This document shows, piece after piece, positions 42,885 through 51,066 of a stretch of 54,423 bases of DNA. Position 1 is the stretch's first letter. Each line of letters opens with the position of its first letter. The position numbers and the translations under genes were made by a program. The DNA is taken from positions 1 through 54,423 of the forward strand of contig JADLFU010000143.1 of the NCBI GenBank assembly GCA_020849655.1, in the 5' to 3' direction. Under the pieces are notes generated by a model. It was not told the DNA's origin. It was given only the letters and a program-made list of their open reading frames with translations, and ran no database searches. Source of the DNA: Polyangiaceae bacterium. GTDB lineage: Bacteria; Myxococcota_A; Polyangia; Polyangiales; Polyangiaceae.

Positions 42885-43021
42885 GCTCGCCGCGCCTACC
42901 ACGGATGGCCCGCGCCGCGCCGCTGAACGAACGACGCCCGCGCGGCACCGAAAATCGGTGCATGACCCCTGAACCTGTGCGAAAAGACGGCAAATCCCGC
43001 TTCGGGGGAGGCACCACCACC

Positions 43022-43849
43022 ATGTCGATCCGCAAGACCGCCGCTCGCTCCCTGTTCGCCTCGACGCTCGCGCTCGGCGTCGTCGCCGCCCCGTCGATCG
43101 CGCGCGCGGACGGCGCGTCGTCCGGCTCGGGCAAGGGCATCGCGGGCGGCGCGATGCTGGGCGCCGAGCTCGTGGTCGGCGTCGAAGCGCTCGCGGGCGT
43201 GCAGCAGCAGTGGGCGTACGGCGCGGGCATCCTCGTGGGCGCGGCGGCCGGCGGCGTCGGCGGGTACTTCATCGAGCAGAGCGCCGATCGCAAGGTGCCG
43301 CTCTACATGCTCGCGGGCGGCGTGGCGCTCGCCATCCCCGCCGCGATCGTCGCGCTGAACGCGACCGCGTACCGCCCGCCGGCCGACTACCAGGAGGACA
43401 CCGGCCCGAAGGACGAGCCGGTCGCCGACCCCGCGAAGCGCACCAGCGAGGGCCCGCGCCGCGCGCCCATCCACCTCGCCGCGCGCACGTACGTGCCGCC
43501 GCCGACGCTGCAGTCGCCCGCGCTTCGTCGCGCCGCGCTGCCGACCTCGGTGCTGCAGCTGCAGCCCGAGGGCGTCCGGGTCGGGGTGCCCGCGGTCGAG
43601 CTGCGCCCCGTCTACACCGCGGTCGAGCAGCGGATGTACGGCGTCACGCAGCGCGAGGAGCTGCGCGTGCCGCTGTTCCACGCGTCGTTCTTAGCTGACC
43701 CGGGCCGAGCGAAGCGCGCCGTGGGCGGCGCGCCGCGGCTCAGAAGTCGGCCTTCACGCCGCTCTGCACCATCAGCGGCGCGTTGGGGCGCGCGCCGAGG
43801 GGGCGCCGCGCGACGAGGGCGCGCTGGTTCGTCAGGTTGCGGCCGTTGA
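43022..43849 (+). CDS. Exported protein of unknown function with probable lost stop codon
   Basis: Starts at ATG 43022 behind GGGGGAGG. Signal peptide with cleavage after SIARA (about residue 29), then two Gly-rich hydrophobic segments (about 40-60 and 62-82, 95-115) and a Pro-rich periplasmic tail. Coding character ends near LFHASF; just after it, a TAG occurs in the +1 frame (43692-43694), and the annotated frame continues into 160 bases with strong Arg/Ser bias, partly antisense to the TonB-receptor gene. A single extra T in TTCTTAG would explain it, so the genuine product probably ends near 43690. Function unknown. Confidence 0.6.
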   Translation: MSIRKTAARSLFASTLALGVVAAPSIARADGASSGSGKGIAGGAMLGAELVVGVEALAGVQQQWAYGAGILVGAAAGGVGGYFIEQSADRKVPLYMLAGGVALAIPAAIVALNATAYRPPADYQEDTGPKDEPVADPAKRTSEGPRRAPIHLAARTYVPPPTLQSPALRRAALPTSVLQLQPEGVRVGVPAVELRPVYTAVEQRMYGVTQREELRVPLFHASFLADPGRAKRAVGGAPRLRSRPSRRSAPSAARWGARRGGAARRGRAGSSGCGR

Positions 43850-45983
43850 CGTAGAGCGACACGCCGCGCGCGAGCCGGTAGTACGCGGACGCGTCGAGCT
43901 GCACCAGCCTGTCGGTGACGACGTCCGGGGTGGCGACGCCCTGCCCCGCCTTCTCGCGCATCTGCCCGACCATCAGGAGCGCGACGTTGACGCCCACCTG
44001 CCTGCGCTCTGCGCCGATGGACGCGGAGAGCTGCTGCTTCGGGACATACGGCAGGTAGTCGCCGTAGCGCACGGTGCCGAACGTCGGATCGCCCGACTGG
44101 AACGACGTGAGGAACCTCGCGTCCGTGTACGTGTACGCGAGGCGCCCCGGGACCGTCCAGCCGCGCCCCGCGCGCAGCTCGCTCTCGACGTACACCTCGA
44201 CGCCGCGGATGCGCGCCTTGCCCGCGTCGTACTGGCGATCGACCCCGTCCTGCGCGCAGCCGCTCGAGAAGGAGCAGACGCTGGTGAGGTTCTGGTAGGC
44301 GTTCCAGAACCCGATGATCTCCGCGCGAAAGCGCCTCGGCGCGTACCGCACGCCGACCTCGGTGTTCGTGCTGCGCTCGGGGCGGACCGCGGTCTGATCG
44401 GTCGGCGGCGCGGGGGTGAAGCCCTGGTGCACGCTCGCGAACGCGCCGAGCGCGTCGGTCGCCGCGACGAACGCGCCGACGCCGGGGAGGAACACCCGCT
44501 GCGAGATGCGCGTCTGATCGCCCGTCAAGGCGTCGTTGTATCGACCGCGGATGCTCTCGATGCGCGCGCCGGCCGTCAACGTCAGGCGCGACCACGTCAT
44601 CGCGTCCATCACGTACGCGGCGAGCGCGTCGGACTCGGCGTGGTTGCGCGCCGTCGTCTCGACGCCCGAGCCGAGGTCGTTGACCGCGCCGCCGTCGAGG
44701 CCGAACGCCTGCTGCGTGTGCAGGCGATCGATCTGGTCGTGGTGCAGCCGAAACCCTTGCTCGAGCCTGTGCTTGATGGGGCCGGTGACGGGCGACGCGC
44801 GGAGCGCGAACTGCAGGCCAGAGGCCGAAAATTCCCGATGATTGGGGCCGATCAGCAGGCTGTCGGTGCCGCCGATCGTCGCCGAGTCGCCGCGCAGCTC
44901 CGAGAGCACGAGCTGGTCGAACTCGGACGTCGGGCGCTTCAGGATCGAATAGAGATCGCCGCCGCGCAGGCCCTGGACGCGGTTCCAGTCGCGCTCGAAG
45001 TCGGCGCGGTAGAGCGTCGTCCTCAGCTCGACGCCCGACGACATCGTCGCCCGGTGCGTGAGCGCGAACGCCGTCCGCGACCACTTCATCTCGTCCGTCT
45101 GCGAGGCGGCGTAGCGGCGCTGCGGGTTGGCCCGGAAATCGGCGTCGGAGAGGCCGAGGTACGTCTCGTGGGAGTCCTCGCTCGAGTACGTCGCCTTCAG
45201 CTCGAGCTCGTGGGTCATGTCGCCGAGCGTGGGCAGCGCGCGGCGCAGCTTGCCGACCCACTCGTTCCGCGTGAACCCGGTGTCGCCGCCGACGACGTCG
45301 ATCGTCTTCCAGCCCGTCGACGAGAGGTGCACGCCCTCGATGAGCGCGCCCCACTTGTCGTCGGAGAGGCCGCCGCGGACGTGCGCTTTTCGGTAGCCGT
45401 ACTGGCCGACCGCGACGTCGACCATGCCGCGGCTCGCGTCCGGGATCGGCGCGCTGAGGAAGTCGACGGCGCCGCCCACCGTGTGCGGTCCGAACAGGAT
45501 GGCCGACGGGCCCTTCAGCACGCGCACGCCGGTCATGCGCGTGATCATCGGGAAATAGTAGGCCGCCGGCGCGGAGTACGGCGCGGGCGCGAACAGCACG
45601 CCGTCCTCCATCAGCGTGACCTTCTTGCTGCGATCGGAGGCCGCGCCGCGCATGCCGATGTTCGGGCGCAGGCCGTAGCCGTCCTCCTGGCGCACGTACA
45701 CGCCGGGCGCCGTCATCAGCACCTGGTTGGGATCGTCGTGCTTGAAGCGCTCGAGCTGCTTGCTCTTGATGATGAGGCCCGAGCCGCCCGTCTTGCTCTC
45801 CTTCGTCCCGACGACGAGGACGTCGCTCGAGGGAGGAGGCGGCGGCGGCGCGGACGGCGGATCGCTCGGCGCGGGCTCTGGCGGAGGGGAAGCTGGCGCG
45901 GCGGGCGGCGGATCGGCGGCGAGCGCGAGGCTGGACGACGCGAGCGCGGCGAGGGTGACGAACAGGAGCGGGCGGCGTGTCAT
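43740..45983 (-). CDS. TonB-dependent receptor, FecA-like
   Basis: 747 residues from ATG 45983, overlapping the upstream gene (ATGA). Signal peptide (LFVTLAALASSSLALAA), Pro-rich linker, plug domain about 50-175 (RQEDGYGLRPNIGMRGAASD, KKVTLMEDGVLF, GVRVLKGPSAILFGPHTVGGAVDFLS), then a 22-strand barrel ending in Phe (SGVKADF). The plug and barrel resemble Fe(III)-dicitrate-type receptors; there is no N-terminal signalling domain. It should import a ferric chelate, or another metal chelate, across the outer membrane. Confidence 0.93.
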   Translation of the reverse strand: MTRRPLLFVTLAALASSSLALAADPPPAAPASPPPEPAPSDPPSAPPPPPPSSDVLVVGTKESKTGGSGLIIKSKQLERFKHDDPNQVLMTAPGVYVRQEDGYGLRPNIGMRGAASDRSKKVTLMEDGVLFAPAPYSAPAAYYFPMITRMTGVRVLKGPSAILFGPHTVGGAVDFLSAPIPDASRGMVDVAVGQYGYRKAHVRGGLSDDKWGALIEGVHLSSTGWKTIDVVGGDTGFTRNEWVGKLRRALPTLGDMTHELELKATYSSEDSHETYLGLSDADFRANPQRRYAASQTDEMKWSRTAFALTHRATMSSGVELRTTLYRADFERDWNRVQGLRGGDLYSILKRPTSEFDQLVLSELRGDSATIGGTDSLLIGPNHREFSASGLQFALRASPVTGPIKHRLEQGFRLHHDQIDRLHTQQAFGLDGGAVNDLGSGVETTARNHAESDALAAYVMDAMTWSRLTLTAGARIESIRGRYNDALTGDQTRISQRVFLPGVGAFVAATDALGAFASVHQGFTPAPPTDQTAVRPERSTNTEVGVRYAPRRFRAEIIGFWNAYQNLTSVCSFSSGCAQDGVDRQYDAGKARIRGVEVYVESELRAGRGWTVPGRLAYTYTDARFLTSFQSGDPTFGTVRYGDYLPYVPKQQLSASIGAERRQVGVNVALLMVGQMREKAGQGVATPDVVTDRLVQLDASAYYRLARGVSLYVNGRNLTNQRALVARRPLGARPNAPLMVQSGVKADF

Positions 45984-47350
45984 CGGCTGGCGACGCGGGA
46001 GAAGCGCGCGGGGGGCTCCGTCGGCGCGGGGAGGATCCACGACGCGCGGCCCACGCCGTCCTCGACCGTGGCGAGGTCGACGCCGGGATCGATCAGCGGC
46101 GCCCCCGGGCGGCCGTTCCACGAGACGCGCGTGTCGGCGTAGACCGCGACGCGCTCGCCCTCGGCGCGCCGGTCGGCGGCGATCACGCGCGCGAGCTGCA
46201 GGATGAGGTCGGGCTGCGACGAGAACTCGCGCGCCTGTCGATCGGTGAGGTACCGACGCGGGTTGACCTCGGTGGTCCTGCCGGACGCGAGGTCGCGCAC
46301 GCGGTAGGTGACCGCGCCGTTCTTCTCGCGGAGCATCACGCGCCAGGAGAAGCGCATCCCCTGCTCGTGCCAGGCCACGTCGCCGCCGTAGAGGTGGCAG
46401 CGCAGCGGCATCAGCGTGTGGAACCCGACGAACAGGGAGAACGCCGCCGCGCCCGCCGCGAACCACCGCGGCGACACGGTGGGCACCGGCGGAGCGAGCT
46501 CACGCGCCGGGCCGAGCCACCTGCGCGGCCACGACGGCGAGAAGAACACGAGCGCCGAGCCGACCATGATGAACGGGAACATCCCGATCGGGAAGAGCGC
46601 GCGCGTCGCCACGTGGAAGCCCACGACCGCGAGGAACGCGTACGGCCGCGTCGGGCGCGCGAGCAGGAAGAACGCGATGGACGTGTCGTAGAGGAACCCC
46701 GCCCACGCCATCAGGTACGCGACCCACACCCGGTCGAGCAGCGGGCCGATGACGGGCGTCTCCGTGCGCGACGACAGCCAGATCTGCAGCGGCTGGGCGT
46801 GCAGCAGCCAGTCGGTGTTGAACTTCGCCATCCCCGCGTAGAAATAGACCGTGCCGACCATGAACCTGAGCGCCCAGGTGCACCACGCGGGCGCGTACGG
46901 CGCGAGGCGGAGCCTCCGCGCGTCGAGCGAGTAGGCCCGGTGCAACGGCAACGCCGCGCCGAGCAGGCAGAGCCAGGTCAGCAGGTAGTAGTGGTTCAGG
47001 TAGTTCGTGACGTCGGTCGTCTCGATGTAGACGAACGCGAGCGCGTACCCGACGATCGCCGGGCGGTAGAACAAACCCAGCGCGACCAGCGCGCCGCACA
47101 CGGCGACGGTGATCAGCGCCGCGTGCACGAGCGCGGGGGTCGGCGACGGCAGCCACTCGAACCCGTCGTAGCGAAACTGGACGCGCGCGCGGAAGAACAG
47201 ATCCTGCGTCCACCCGTAGGCGTAGATGCGCGTCACCGACACGACGCCGATGAGCCCGAGCACGACGCGGAACACCCCGAGCGCCGCCGCGTCGGTCGGC
47301 TGGAGCGCGGCGTCCCGGAGGCGCTCCCACCGCGTGGCCGCCTCAGTCAT
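45980..47350 (-). CDS. HTTM / vitamin-K-dependent gamma-carboxylase-like membrane protein
   Basis: 456 residues. About eight membrane helices (8-300) with HTTM signatures (FRVVLGLIGVVSVTRIY, WLCLLGAALPLHRAYSLD, YFYAGMAKFNTDWLLHAQPL, FLYDTSIAFFLLAR, FPFIMVGSALVFFSPSWPRRW). These are followed by a periplasmic-side domain that follows the carboxylase C-terminal pattern closely: MRFSWRVMLREKNG, NPRRYLTDRQAREFSSQPDLILQLARVI, VYADTRVSWNGRPGAPLIDPGVDL. It is a standalone protein, unlike the DCC fusion at 31376. It sits between the imelysin-like and TonB genes with overlaps on both sides. Known relatives carboxylate Glu in target proteins or are of unknown activity; its target here is unknown. Confidence 0.88.
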   Translation of the reverse strand: MTEAATRWERLRDAALQPTDAAALGVFRVVLGLIGVVSVTRIYAYGWTQDLFFRARVQFRYDGFEWLPSPTPALVHAALITVAVCGALVALGLFYRPAIVGYALAFVYIETTDVTNYLNHYYLLTWLCLLGAALPLHRAYSLDARRLRLAPYAPAWCTWALRFMVGTVYFYAGMAKFNTDWLLHAQPLQIWLSSRTETPVIGPLLDRVWVAYLMAWAGFLYDTSIAFFLLARPTRPYAFLAVVGFHVATRALFPIGMFPFIMVGSALVFFSPSWPRRWLGPARELAPPVPTVSPRWFAAGAAAFSLFVGFHTLMPLRCHLYGGDVAWHEQGMRFSWRVMLREKNGAVTYRVRDLASGRTTEVNPRRYLTDRQAREFSSQPDLILQLARVIAADRRAEGERVAVYADTRVSWNGRPGAPLIDPGVDLATVEDGVGRASWILPAPTEPPARFSRVASR

Positions 47351-48647
47351 TGTCGCCCTCCAGCGACTTCGGGGGCTCGAGATCGAGCAGCGTCAAGAAA
47401 TCGCTCTTCAGGAAATCCGTCAGGCGCTTCACCGCGTCGCGCGCGGCCGTCACCGTCGCGGGCTGCTGCGTGAGGGCCGTCGCGAGATCGTCGTACGGAA
47501 CGGCGTCGATCGCGCCGATCGCGTCCTGTACGGCGAAGCGGAGCCGGTCGGCCGCCGCCTGCTGCCCGAGCCCGAACAGCAGATCGTCGAACCCGACGCC
47601 CGCGCCCGCGTCGCCGCAGCCGGTCGCCAGCCTGCGGAACCCGAGCAGGTTGCGGCGCAGCGACTCGCGGGAGTGCCCGGCCCACGTGGACTCGACGGCC
47701 TCGGGGCACGTCGCCTTGCCGCAGTCGATGAGGCCGAGCGGCTGGCCGAGCTTGCGGTCCTTCACGCGCTGATCGAGGTGGAACATCGCGTCGCTGATGG
47801 CGTTGAGCGCGAGCTGATCGGACGCGTAGACGCCGCTGCCCTGCCCCGCGCCCGACAGCTGCGCGACGAAGTTGCCGCCCTTCGGGCTCCAGAGGTTCGC
47901 CAGCGCGCGCGCGCGAGCCGCCGTGTCGGCCGCGACCACCGCCGCGTACGCCGCGCGGCGCGCCCCGAGCTCCTCGGCCCCGAGCGCGCCGAACGGCCCC
48001 GCGATCGCGCTCGACGCGCCGCAGGCCTGGTCGGCGCCCGTATGGAAAGCGAGGTAGTCGAGCGCGGCGAGCGAGCGCATCGGCAGCAGCGTCGTCGTCG
48101 CGAAGCCTGGCGCGGCGTAGCCCTGCGAGACGATCACCTTCTCGATCTCACAGCGGCTGACGAGGGGCCAGCCGTAGATCGCGGGCCCGAGGTCTTGCCC
48201 GCCCGGCGTCGGCGCCGCGGACGACGCGCTCCCGCCAGCGGGGCCGAAGCTGACGACCTCGGCCTCGGACCACGCCTCGAGCGCAGCGCGGTAGTCGGCC
48301 TGCGACTTCGCCACGGCGCCGGCGTCGGACGGAGCGGCGCCGCGCGCTGCGCTCGACGACGACAGGGCCTCGAGCGCCGCGGCGGCCGCGTCGGTCACCT
48401 TCACGGCGCAGTCGCCGGCGGCGACGACGACGTCGTGCCTCGTCGCGGCGGTGAGCGCCCCGTACTCGGTCGGGGTCGAAGACGCGGACGTGCCGCCCGA
48501 GGGGTGAGGCACGCTGGTCGACCCACCCGCCGCCGAGGGCCCGCCCGCGCGCCCCGCGCGGCTCCACGTCTCCGTCCGCTCACACGCCGCCGCGAGCGGC
48601 AGCAGGCCGGAGAGGATCAGGCACGAAAACCAGCCAGCGCGCGTCAC
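47343..48647 (-). CDS. Imelysin-family lipoprotein with degenerate metal motif
   Basis: 434 residues from GTG 48647, which overlaps the delta-60 gene stop (GTGA). Lipobox LLPLAAAC. The helical imelysin fold is recognisable in VVAAGDCAVKVTDAAAAALEAL, ALEAWSEAEVVSFGPAG, IYGWPLVSRCEIEKVIV, the central MRSLAALDYLAFHTG and the C-terminal FLKSDFLTLLDLEPPKSLEGDND. The family GxHxxE motif aligns to SLAALD, with His and Glu both changed, so metal binding by that motif is unlikely. Imelysins are iron-regulated periplasmic or surface proteins often next to TonB receptors. Confidence 0.8.
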   Translation of the reverse strand: MTRAGWFSCLILSGLLPLAAACERTETWSRAGRAGGPSAAGGSTSVPHPSGGTSASSTPTEYGALTAATRHDVVVAAGDCAVKVTDAAAAALEALSSSSAARGAAPSDAGAVAKSQADYRAALEAWSEAEVVSFGPAGGSASSAAPTPGGQDLGPAIYGWPLVSRCEIEKVIVSQGYAAPGFATTTLLPMRSLAALDYLAFHTGADQACGASSAIAGPFGALGAEELGARRAAYAAVVAADTAARARALANLWSPKGGNFVAQLSGAGQGSGVYASDQLALNAISDAMFHLDQRVKDRKLGQPLGLIDCGKATCPEAVESTWAGHSRESLRRNLLGFRRLATGCGDAGAGVGFDDLLFGLGQQAAADRLRFAVQDAIGAIDAVPYDDLATALTQQPATVTAARDAVKRLTDFLKSDFLTLLDLEPPKSLEGDND

Positions 48648-50257
48648 GGGGTCGGGACGGATAGCACGGCCACGTCGTCGTGCGTGGCGCTGCTCCCCTT
48701 CACGCCGACGACCAGCAAGCGCTTCCCGTCCGGCGACAGCGCCGCGCCCCAGAACTGATCACCCGTGCCGCCGAGATCGAACACGACCTTGCCGCCGGTC
48801 CCGAACGTCGCGTCGAGCGCGCCGTCCTTCGTGAGGATGGCGATCATCGCGTCGCTCGTGTCGGCGCTCGAGCGCCCGCTGCCGACCAGGAGGACGCGCC
48901 CGTCCGGGAGCGTGAGCACCGCGCGCCCGTTGTCGTTGAACCCGGCCGCGTCCACGCGGACGGCGCCGTCGGTCCCGTACGACTTGTCGAGCTTGCCGTC
49001 CTTCGTGAGCCGCAGGGACACCCAGTCGAGCGCCTCGGCGTCCGCGCCCTTGCCATAGCCGACCGTGACGATGTGCTCTCCCTGCAGCGCGACGCCGTAT
49101 GCCTCCGTCGTGTGCGGCAGCACGACCTCGCTGAACAGCCCGCCGACGCCGAACCCGGCGTCGAGCGTCCCCGCGGGCGTGACCTTGTACACCACCGGCG
49201 AGACGACCTTCGCCGCGTCGCGCGTGTACCCGGACGCGAGCACCGCGCCGTCGGGGAGCACCGTGAGCCCGCGAGGATCGGCGTTCTGCTGGTTGACGTC
49301 GACGCACGCGAGGCCCGCCGCGCCGTACGTCGCGTCGAGCGCCCCCGCGGCCGTCACGCGCACGACGCAGTGGTCACGGTCCGCACGCCCGTCCGCCTTC
49401 TTCGCGGCGGCGACCAGGATCTTGCCGTCGGGCGCGAGACCCAGGCCCCACGCGGAGTCCGCCGTGTACGAGGTGTCGACGACCTCGCCGGGAGAGAGAT
49501 CCAGCGTGAGCACGCCGCCCGCGCCGAACGTGGCGTCGAGCTTGCCGTCCGGCGTGAGGCGCGCGACCGCGATGTCCCGGTCGCGCGCGTCGGCCGCGCC
49601 CGCGTGCTCCACCGTCGCCGCGATCACGATCTTGCCATCCGCCTGCACGGCGATCCCCCGCGCCGACTCGCCGCTCGTGCCCACGGCGAGGTTGTGGCGC
49701 GCGACGCCGTCGGTGCCGAAGCTCTTGTCGATCTTGCCGTCGGCGCCGAGCTTGACGACGATCGTCGCGACGTCGGCGGTCGACTCGGTCGTGTCGGAGA
49801 TCGTGCCGACGGCGAAGGCCGCGCCCGCCGCGCCGAACGCCACGCCGTACAGTCGGTCGTGGCCGAGCGAGGAGAGCGTGATCACCTCGGGGCTCATGCT
49901 CGGCGCGATCCCGCCCGCGCCCGCCGCTCCACCCGCGCCCGCAGACGCACCGCCCGCGCCCGCAGACGCACCGCCCGCGCCCGCAGACGCACCGCCCGAA
50001 CCCGCAGACGCACCGCCCGCGCCGGCCGAGGAGCCCCCCGCGCCCGCGGACGATCCGCCGGCACCCGCGAACGATCCGCCCGCGCCCGCAGACGCCCCGG
50101 CTGCGCCAGCGGACGAGCCGCCAGCGCCCGCGGACGAGCCGCCAGCGCCCGCTCCGCCAGGAGTCGCGCTGGTCTCGACGTCTTCGGCGCACGCGGCGAC
50201 CGCGAGCAGGGCGAGGATCGAGCAGATGGGGGCACACCAGGACTTGCTGAAGATCAT
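48644..50257 (-). CDS. Delta-60 repeat lipoprotein with Gly/Ala/Ser stalk
   Basis: 537 residues from ATG 50257 behind GGGAGG. Lipobox ALLAVAAC, then about 85 residues of AGAGGSS/GASAGAGG repeats, then six beta-propeller-like delta-60 repeats (DGKIDKSFGTDG, DGKLDATFGAGG, AGALDATYGAAG, AGTLDAGFGVGG, DGKLDKSYGTDG, DGALDATFGTGG). Such repeats are typical of surface proteins that bind ligands or partners. It is the first gene of the operon, so the Fur-like site controls it directly. Confidence 0.88.
   Translation of the reverse strand: MIFSKSWCAPICSILALLAVAACAEDVETSATPGGAGAGGSSAGAGGSSAGAAGASAGAGGSFAGAGGSSAGAGGSSAGAGGASAGSGGASAGAGGASAGAGGASAGAGGAAGAGGIAPSMSPEVITLSSLGHDRLYGVAFGAAGAAFAVGTISDTTESTADVATIVVKLGADGKIDKSFGTDGVARHNLAVGTSGESARGIAVQADGKIVIAATVEHAGAADARDRDIAVARLTPDGKLDATFGAGGVLTLDLSPGEVVDTSYTADSAWGLGLAPDGKILVAAAKKADGRADRDHCVVRVTAAGALDATYGAAGLACVDVNQQNADPRGLTVLPDGAVLASGYTRDAAKVVSPVVYKVTPAGTLDAGFGVGGLFSEVVLPHTTEAYGVALQGEHIVTVGYGKGADAEALDWVSLRLTKDGKLDKSYGTDGAVRVDAAGFNDNGRAVLTLPDGRVLLVGSGRSSADTSDAMIAILTKDGALDATFGTGGKVVFDLGGTGDQFWGAALSPDGKRLLVVGVKGSSATHDDVAVLSVPTP
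49938..50021 (-). repeat. 21-base tandem repeat within the delta-60 gene
   Basis: Four near-perfect copies of a 21-base unit (CCCGCAGACGCACCGCCCGC-G on the plus strand) begin at 49938, 49959, 49980 and 50001. They encode a 7-residue period of Ala-Gly-Gly-Ala-Ser-Ala-Gly. In-frame unit changes would lengthen or shorten the stalk without frameshift, so it may vary in length. Confidence 0.8.
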
Positions 50258-50271
50258 GGCCTCCCGATACA

Positions 50272-50290
50272 CACTTTGATTTTCATTTGC
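50272..50290 (-). promoter_or_regulatory. Candidate Fur box of the four-gene operon
   Basis: On the minus strand the 19-mer GCAAATGAAAATCAAAGTG contains AATGAAAATCA, one change from the Fur core AATGATAATCA, and matches the 19-base Fur consensus at about 12 positions. It lies in a small AT-rich island 14 to 33 bases before the start of the delta-60 gene, the first gene of an operon with a TonB receptor. No -35/-10 pair was clear. Confidence 0.45.
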
Positions 50291-50349: not shown

Positions 50350-51066
50350 ATGAATTTCCCCGCACGTGCCGCCGCCGCCCTCCTCGCGATCTCGTCGCTC
50401 GGCCTCGCCGACCCAGCGCCGCCGGTCACCGCGACCGCGGGCGCCGAGCTTCGCGAGCCGCGCGTGCGGCCGGGCGGACACCTGCACGACGGGTTCTTCC
50501 TGCGGCTCGGGACGGGCTTCGGCGCCTACCAGGAGCGGGTCTTCGCGAAGATGGGGCACGACGAGCCGCACAGCACCGTGACGGGCGTCGGCACCGCGAG
50601 CGAGCTGATGATCGGCGGGAACGTCTCGCGGCGCCTCGTGCTCGGCGGCGGCACGTGGGGCACGAGCGTGCTCGCCTCGGACGTCACGCTCGCGAAGGGC
50701 TCGGGCGGCGCGGCGCCGTCCGCGGCCGCGACCGATCTCTCGGGGACGCCGAGCCTCACGCTGCTCGGGCCGTTCCTCACGTACTACTTCGACCCGACAG
50801 GTGGCCTCTCGGTCTACGGCGCGCTCGGCCTCGCGTCGTCGCGCGCGATGGATCCGGCGGGTGGCAAGTTCGACCGAGAGGACATCGCGCGCGGCGCGGG
50901 CGCGGCGCTCGGCGTCTCGTATGACTGGTGGGTCGGCGAGGAGTGGAGCGTCGGCGTCTCCGCGCGCGCCGCGGGCGCGGCGACGTCGCGGAAGGTCGGC
51001 GACGAGCGCGCGTGGCACATGGTGGTGACGTCGCCGTCGGTGCTGTTCACCGTGACGTACCACTGA
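50350..51066 (+). CDS. Predicted outer-membrane beta-barrel protein
   Basis: 238 residues. A short signal peptide (ARAAAALLAISSLGLA) precedes a region of alternating hydrophobic residues and glycine typical of an eight-stranded barrel (GGHLHDGFFLRLGTGFGAYQ, SELMIGGNVSRRLVLGGGTWG, LTLLGPFLTYYFDPTGGLSVYGALGLA), ending with VLFTVTYH. The pattern resembles small OprF/OmpW-like porins, but no family is recognised. It is divergent from the iron operon, sharing a 92-base promoter region. Confidence 0.75.
   Translation: MNFPARAAAALLAISSLGLADPAPPVTATAGAELREPRVRPGGHLHDGFFLRLGTGFGAYQERVFAKMGHDEPHSTVTGVGTASELMIGGNVSRRLVLGGGTWGTSVLASDVTLAKGSGGAAPSAAATDLSGTPSLTLLGPFLTYYFDPTGGLSVYGALGLASSRAMDPAGGKFDREDIARGAGAALGVSYDWWVGEEWSVGVSARAAGAATSRKVGDERAWHMVVTSPSVLFTVTYH

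Follow-up and report, generated by a model that had tools for sequence, protein, structure and literature searches.

Imelysins belong to several described iron systems. The Pseudomonas operon of the PA4370-PA4373 type is a Fur-regulated iron operon (PMC3143127), and the lruB, di-haem and imelysin genes of Leptospira are induced by iron limitation (PMC13066512). In Riemerella anatipestifer, the genes RAYM_09779-09794, which encode a receptor, a protein of the VKGC family (that of the human gamma-carboxylase GGCX), an imelysin and a hypothetical protein, are all listed as iron/Fur-regulated (PMC5609570). The 2011 imelysin survey ties imelysins to EfeB-type proteins and mentions no carboxylase (PMC3143127). 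In the openly licensed literature of PubMed Central, imelysin and gamma-carboxylase occur together only in the Riemerella table (PMC5609570), and imelysin and HTTM were not found together. The stretch of DNA considered here, called the window below, is a contig of 54,423 nucleotides from a 6.56 Mb draft genome of a Polyangiaceae bacterium, and carries a four-gene operon in which a GGCX-family membrane protein follows a type-2 (GxxxxE) imelysin. GGCX has long been studied as an animal enzyme; a gene order kept in several phyla, together with the intact catalytic lysine and quinone pocket, now ties its bacterial relative to a single partner, the type-2 imelysin, and to likely control by Fur.

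All four genes lie on the minus strand and run from 50257 to 43740 in the order delta-60 lipoprotein, imelysin, HTTM/VKGC protein and TonB-dependent receptor, with overlaps of 4, 8 and 4 bases. This is the arrangement given in the initial annotation, and each gene matches a domain family. The third gene (45980-47350) encodes a protein of 456 residues that is a true homologue of GGCX along its whole length, not merely an HTTM protein. Its Pfam matches are PF05090 (HTTM, 4.9e-67) and PF22777 (VKGC_lumenal_dom, 5.4e-42), and GGCX entries are the sole matches in a phmmer search of the PDB at E 0.01, where residues 6-442 align with GGCX 46-505 at 2.4e-27. With the AlphaFold2 model (pLDDT 87), GGCX alone is significant in Foldseek (E 1e-20, TM 0.8), and VIA-align superposes the model on GGCX with a Z score of 29.5 and 3.3 Å across 441-443 residues. 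The gamma-carboxylase pattern, first proposed from the sequence of this protein, is thus present in both its lumenal domain and its fold.

A cryo-EM study of GGCX has identified K218 as the base, N159, H160 and Y395 as the residues that hold the substrate Glu, and phenylalanines together with W223 as those that hold the naphthoquinone (PMC12589487). The equivalents in the window protein are K176 for K218, H120 for H160 and N119 for N159, and H246 corresponds to H287. When 114 bacterial relatives are aligned with GGCX, K218 and N159 are found in all 114, H160 in 112 and H287 in 113; the catalytic Lys and His positions on which the initial annotation had made its proposal depend are kept in the family. 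Most of the vitamin K pocket is also retained, with F286, F294, F299, V210, W223, A214 and G259 found in 96-100% of the bacterial relatives. The window protein has all of these as well as H160, with four substitutions in the pocket (GGCX numbering: M401 to Val, V255 to Met, G258 to Ala and N290 to Thr), and its equivalent of K217 is Ala. Neither the Glu-binding site nor the set of propeptide-binding lobes of the animal enzyme is complete in the window protein, which stops at about GGCX 505-520 and for this reason lacks the arch as well as the second of these lobes. Judged by these residues, GGCX-type chemistry is plausible in the window protein, while a mammalian mode of substrate recognition is not. 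In two divergent VKGC paralogues at other loci (L065 6971-8629 and L071 6854-8101), K218 is kept but H160 is replaced by Leu or Phe, and neither gene has an imelysin beside it.

A source of the quinone cofactor is likely, judging by the gene content of the genome: MenD and VKOR-like proteins are both found. The futalosine path to menaquinone was considered and set aside, since MqnA/D were not found in the genome and MenD was found instead. Another contig of the genome (C18; L173 4038-5126 and 9617-12310) encodes one more HTTM-domain protein, a divergent one, some 5 kb away from an open reading frame in which a weak match to VKOR precedes a thioredoxin-like part.

The association of the enzyme with imelysin is confirmed across phyla, and is stronger than in the initial annotation. 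Strong VKGC matches (E <= 1e-50) occur in 60 of 282 Myxococcota genomes; all 60 have an imelysin, as against 46 of the 222 others (P 1.8e-32), and 63 of the 75 VKGC genes in this sample lie within 1 kb of one. The best 80 matches of one genome scan, in which several related genomes are counted, also cover Bacteroidota, Chloroflexota and records titled Planctomycetota and Bdellovibrionaceae, and an imelysin stands beside VKGC in 75 of these 80 loci. Of the five exceptions, three start less than 200 bases from a contig end and one (L137) has 1.7 kb of sequence upstream, which leaves L105 as the only one with plenty of space for an imelysin. The neighbourhood therefore recurs well beyond this genome, which had been the first check proposed for it. 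The distance matrices of VKGC and imelysin are correlated (rho 0.81, permutation maximum 0.11), although shared descent alone can give such a value.

Two layouts predominate among the best 80 loci. The order imelysin-VKGC-receptor, which is that of the window, is present in 63, of which 16 also have the delta-60 protein, a recurrent but occasional accessory partner in Myxococcota. The order imelysin, di-haem oxidoreductase, imelysin-2 and VKGC is present in 7 of the 80, and in 7 of 40 Myxococcota loci; a receptor of the window family or a delta-60 protein is generally absent from its vicinity. In both layouts, the imelysin that adjoins VKGC is of the GxxxxE/D type, while the GxHxxE imelysin lies across the di-haem gene. 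VKGC comes straight after imelysin-2 in L056-L058, L061-L063, L068, L109, L119, L128, L138, L141 and L149. Since imelysin is the only partner common to both layouts, it would be the leading candidate substrate. The delta-60 lipoprotein, being only an occasional partner, is unlikely to serve as a general substrate.

The imelysin of the window (47343-48647) is a lipoprotein of 434 residues with a GTG start and a match to the M75 profile PF09375 above the cut-off (6.1e-24). Its AlphaFold2 model has the two four-helix-bundle fold and matches 3pf0 (TMt 0.81), 4ecg and 7xrx. In its motif, SLAALDYL, the His of GxHxxE is lost, as in the GxxxxE proteins of the IPPA/PA4372 type, and the Glu is replaced by Asp. 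The chain ends in ...EGDND. Type-2 imelysins (window 47346-47354; L033-L152 and L178-L218) have a C-terminal D-x-D in 100 of 102 VKGC-linked cases and also without VKGC, and this tail is missing from GxHxxE imelysins. As a substrate or tag specific to VKGC, the D-[N/G]-D tail was rejected, being present also in DUF1513-linked proteobacterial imelysins, in PDB 3pf0 and in VKGC-less Myxococcota imelysins; its middle residue is looser without VKGC (Fisher 8e-5), though tree-controlled pairs are not significant. E319, which apparently occupies the position of PIBO Glu137, is found in 99% of VKGC-linked imelysins and is a His in GxHxxE ones. It was considered as a carboxyglutamate (Gla) site and rejected as not specific, since DUF1513-linked imelysins share it. 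A separate small Gla peptide within the operon has no room, because the genes overlap. In proteobacterial operons (compare L166 and L167), DUF1513 fills the slot after imelysin-2 instead of VKGC, a replacement that suggests that the two may be alternative partners of the same imelysin; DUF1513 was not found in the genome of the window. Contig C109 of that genome (L174 5539-7865) encodes a second imelysin with a GVHAIE motif, which overlaps a di-haem-oxidoreductase-like frame and is possibly part of a separate imelysin-1/di-haem oxidoreductase operon.

Just upstream of the delta-60 gene, at 50266-50290 on the minus strand, are two overlapping 19-mers that resemble Fur boxes, GCAAATGAAAATCAAAGTG and GAAAATCAAAGTGTGTATC. 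These sites, at 50272-50290 and 50266-50284, each match the E. coli Fur consensus at 12 of 19 positions, and no other site in the surrounding 15.4 kb matches it better. Since 12/19 matches are found 7 times in the whole window, the box taken alone is weak. The upstream boxes of relatives reach 15-17 of 19. Among 69 loci from outside the Bacteroidota, the highest-scoring box lies upstream of the operon in 27.7, where 2.8 would be expected (P 6e-20, with related loci not independent), an enrichment that makes the candidate in the window credible. The genome has four Fur-family genes. Fur control, which the initial annotation had proposed, is therefore likely for the operon, as suggested by these sites and by analogy with the iron/Fur response of the Riemerella genes.

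We put at about an even chance the reading that this is a Fur-repressed iron operon of the imelysin type, in which a menahydroquinone-driven enzyme of the GGCX type acts on or with the type-2 imelysin. At low iron, the outer-membrane TonB receptor, the PA4372/IPPA-like imelysin, the beta-propeller lipoprotein and the inner-membrane enzyme with the GGCX fold would all be made. The enzyme would bind menahydroquinone at the periplasmic face, where Lys176, the equivalent of K218, would deprotonate it, and the oxygenated quinone could then serve as a strong base. This base would most likely be used on the partner imelysin, an acidic residue of which might be carboxylated or otherwise modified, tuning its iron site and so benefiting iron capture. 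A narrower form of this proposal, in which menaquinone-driven gamma- (or beta-) carboxylation builds a high-affinity iron site on the surface imelysin under iron starvation, with metal capture as the ancestral role and the carboxylation of animal clotting as a relative, is tentative and seems somewhat unlikely.

Several observations weigh against the preferred reading. In the window protein, the Glu site is altered at N158 (Leu), Y395 (Met) and R436 (Glu), in addition to the change at M401 in the pocket. No Glu is gained together with VKGC in imelysins (74 VKGC-linked against 39 VKGC-less, both sets from outside the Bacteroidota) or in receptors (56 against 28). Operons with a receptor and an imelysin and without VKGC are common in Myxococcota, and the presence of VKGC changes about 14 times along the tree of the imelysins (FastTree), where some loci scored as VKGC-less hold the second imelysins of genomes with VKGC elsewhere. 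Because of these changes and of the many operons without it, VKGC is, by its distribution, an accessory of the imelysin system and not essential to it.

The conserved quinone pocket could also serve another chemistry, in which menahydroquinone is an electron donor rather than a base, and the protein is a ferric reductase or a quinone oxidase that faces the periplasm, serves the iron bound by imelysin and carries out no carboxylation. The retention of this pocket next to the loss of several Glu-binding residues and of the C-terminal propeptide-binding part would suit such an enzyme, as would the position of VKGC beside imelysin in layouts with a di-haem oxidoreductase, and the comparisons of imelysins and receptors show no Gla-site signature. 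However, K218, N159, H160 and H287 are conserved at 98-100% in bacteria, and K218, the carboxylation base in GGCX (PMC12589487), would be superfluous for plain electron transfer, so that we regard this alternative as unlikely.

Carboxylation of a substrate other than imelysin appears improbable as well. The candidates are the receptor, the delta-60 or the DUF4856 lipoprotein and a small iron chelator, and the proposal of the initial annotation that the two lipoproteins of the operon are modified is of the same kind. Even though most loci have the receptor, and a DUF4856 lipoprotein stands ahead of the imelysin in one Bacteroidota locus, the di-haem layout places the enzyme beside an imelysin, as a rule without a receptor of the window family or a delta-60 protein, and the Glu positions conserved in the receptors are kept to roughly the same degree where the operon has no VKGC. 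The position that VKGC holds after imelysin-2, which in Proteobacteria belongs to DUF1513, a domain of unknown function, would also be compatible with a catalytically dead protein or a structural membrane partner of imelysin, such as an anchor or an assembly factor. This is very unlikely, since the catalytic and quinone-pocket residues are near-invariant over several phyla, which argues that chemistry has been retained. The ties of the enzyme to the imelysin and to probable Fur control reduce the question to two proteins that can be tested together, the enzyme and the imelysin, and to one growth condition, iron limitation. If carboxylation holds true, it would represent a bacterial vitamin-K-dependent protein modification for metal uptake, and would bear on the origin of the animal system.

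The delta-60 repeat lipoprotein (48644-50257, 537 residues, ATG at 50257), a DUF5122 beta-propeller, has the lipobox VAAC and a Gly/Ala/Ser-rich linker. It matches TIGR02608 at 5.6e-66 with 218 bits (curated cut-off 76.5) over 6 repeats, and PF17164 at 3.7e-22. At one locus of the Bacteroidota (Aquimarina, L114 5525-6745), a DUF4856 lipoprotein is encoded ahead of the imelysin, where the window has the delta-60 lipoprotein. The receptor (43740-45983, 747 residues), the gene of which overlaps that of VKGC in an ATGA, has Plug and barrel domains (barrel 5.2e-39, Pfam/NCBIfam), and receptors of its family adjoin VKGC in relatives as well. It was first described as FecA-like, and FecA is indeed its nearest PDB match (4e-17); as a member of the FecA equivalog NF041676 it does not qualify, with 74 bits against a cut-off of 1100. 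Neither of the flanking genes on the plus strand (42905-43849 and 50350-51066) matches a Pfam or NCBIfam profile, and the relatives that were examined have no counterpart of them. No EfeB-like or di-haem-oxidoreductase-like neighbour of the imelysin is present in the window, and the adjoining open reading frames are unlike EfeU, for which no profile search was made.

Compared with human GGCX (PDB 9l6q, 9bvq and others), the window enzyme has the same fold over 441 residues, the catalytic Lys and His and most of the quinone pocket. Unlike GGCX, it is encoded in an iron operon and differs at K217, Y395, R436 and M401. A VKGC homologue in Leptospira is likewise a bacterial relative of GGCX, and is reportedly altered in activity. 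EfeUOB/EfeUOM systems also have a protein with an imelysin (M75) domain, whereas the imelysin of the window is of another subfamily. Pseudomonas PA4370-PA4373, with imelysin, di-haem oxidoreductase, imelysin-2 and DUF1513 in a row, shares the GxxxxE imelysin with a D-x-D C-terminus; it has DUF1513 where Myxococcota and Chloroflexota have VKGC, while the operon of the window includes a TonB receptor and lacks a di-haem protein. The Riemerella block RAYM_09779-09794 likewise has receptor, VKGC, imelysin and one further gene in a row, all iron/Fur-listed, but appears in PMC5609570 as table rows only, with the conserved link not drawn there. Its fourth gene, called hypothetical, is not delta-60 and, by analogy with the Bacteroidota locus, probably encodes a DUF4856 protein. 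The operon of the window is thus apparently an undescribed variant of the known imelysin systems.
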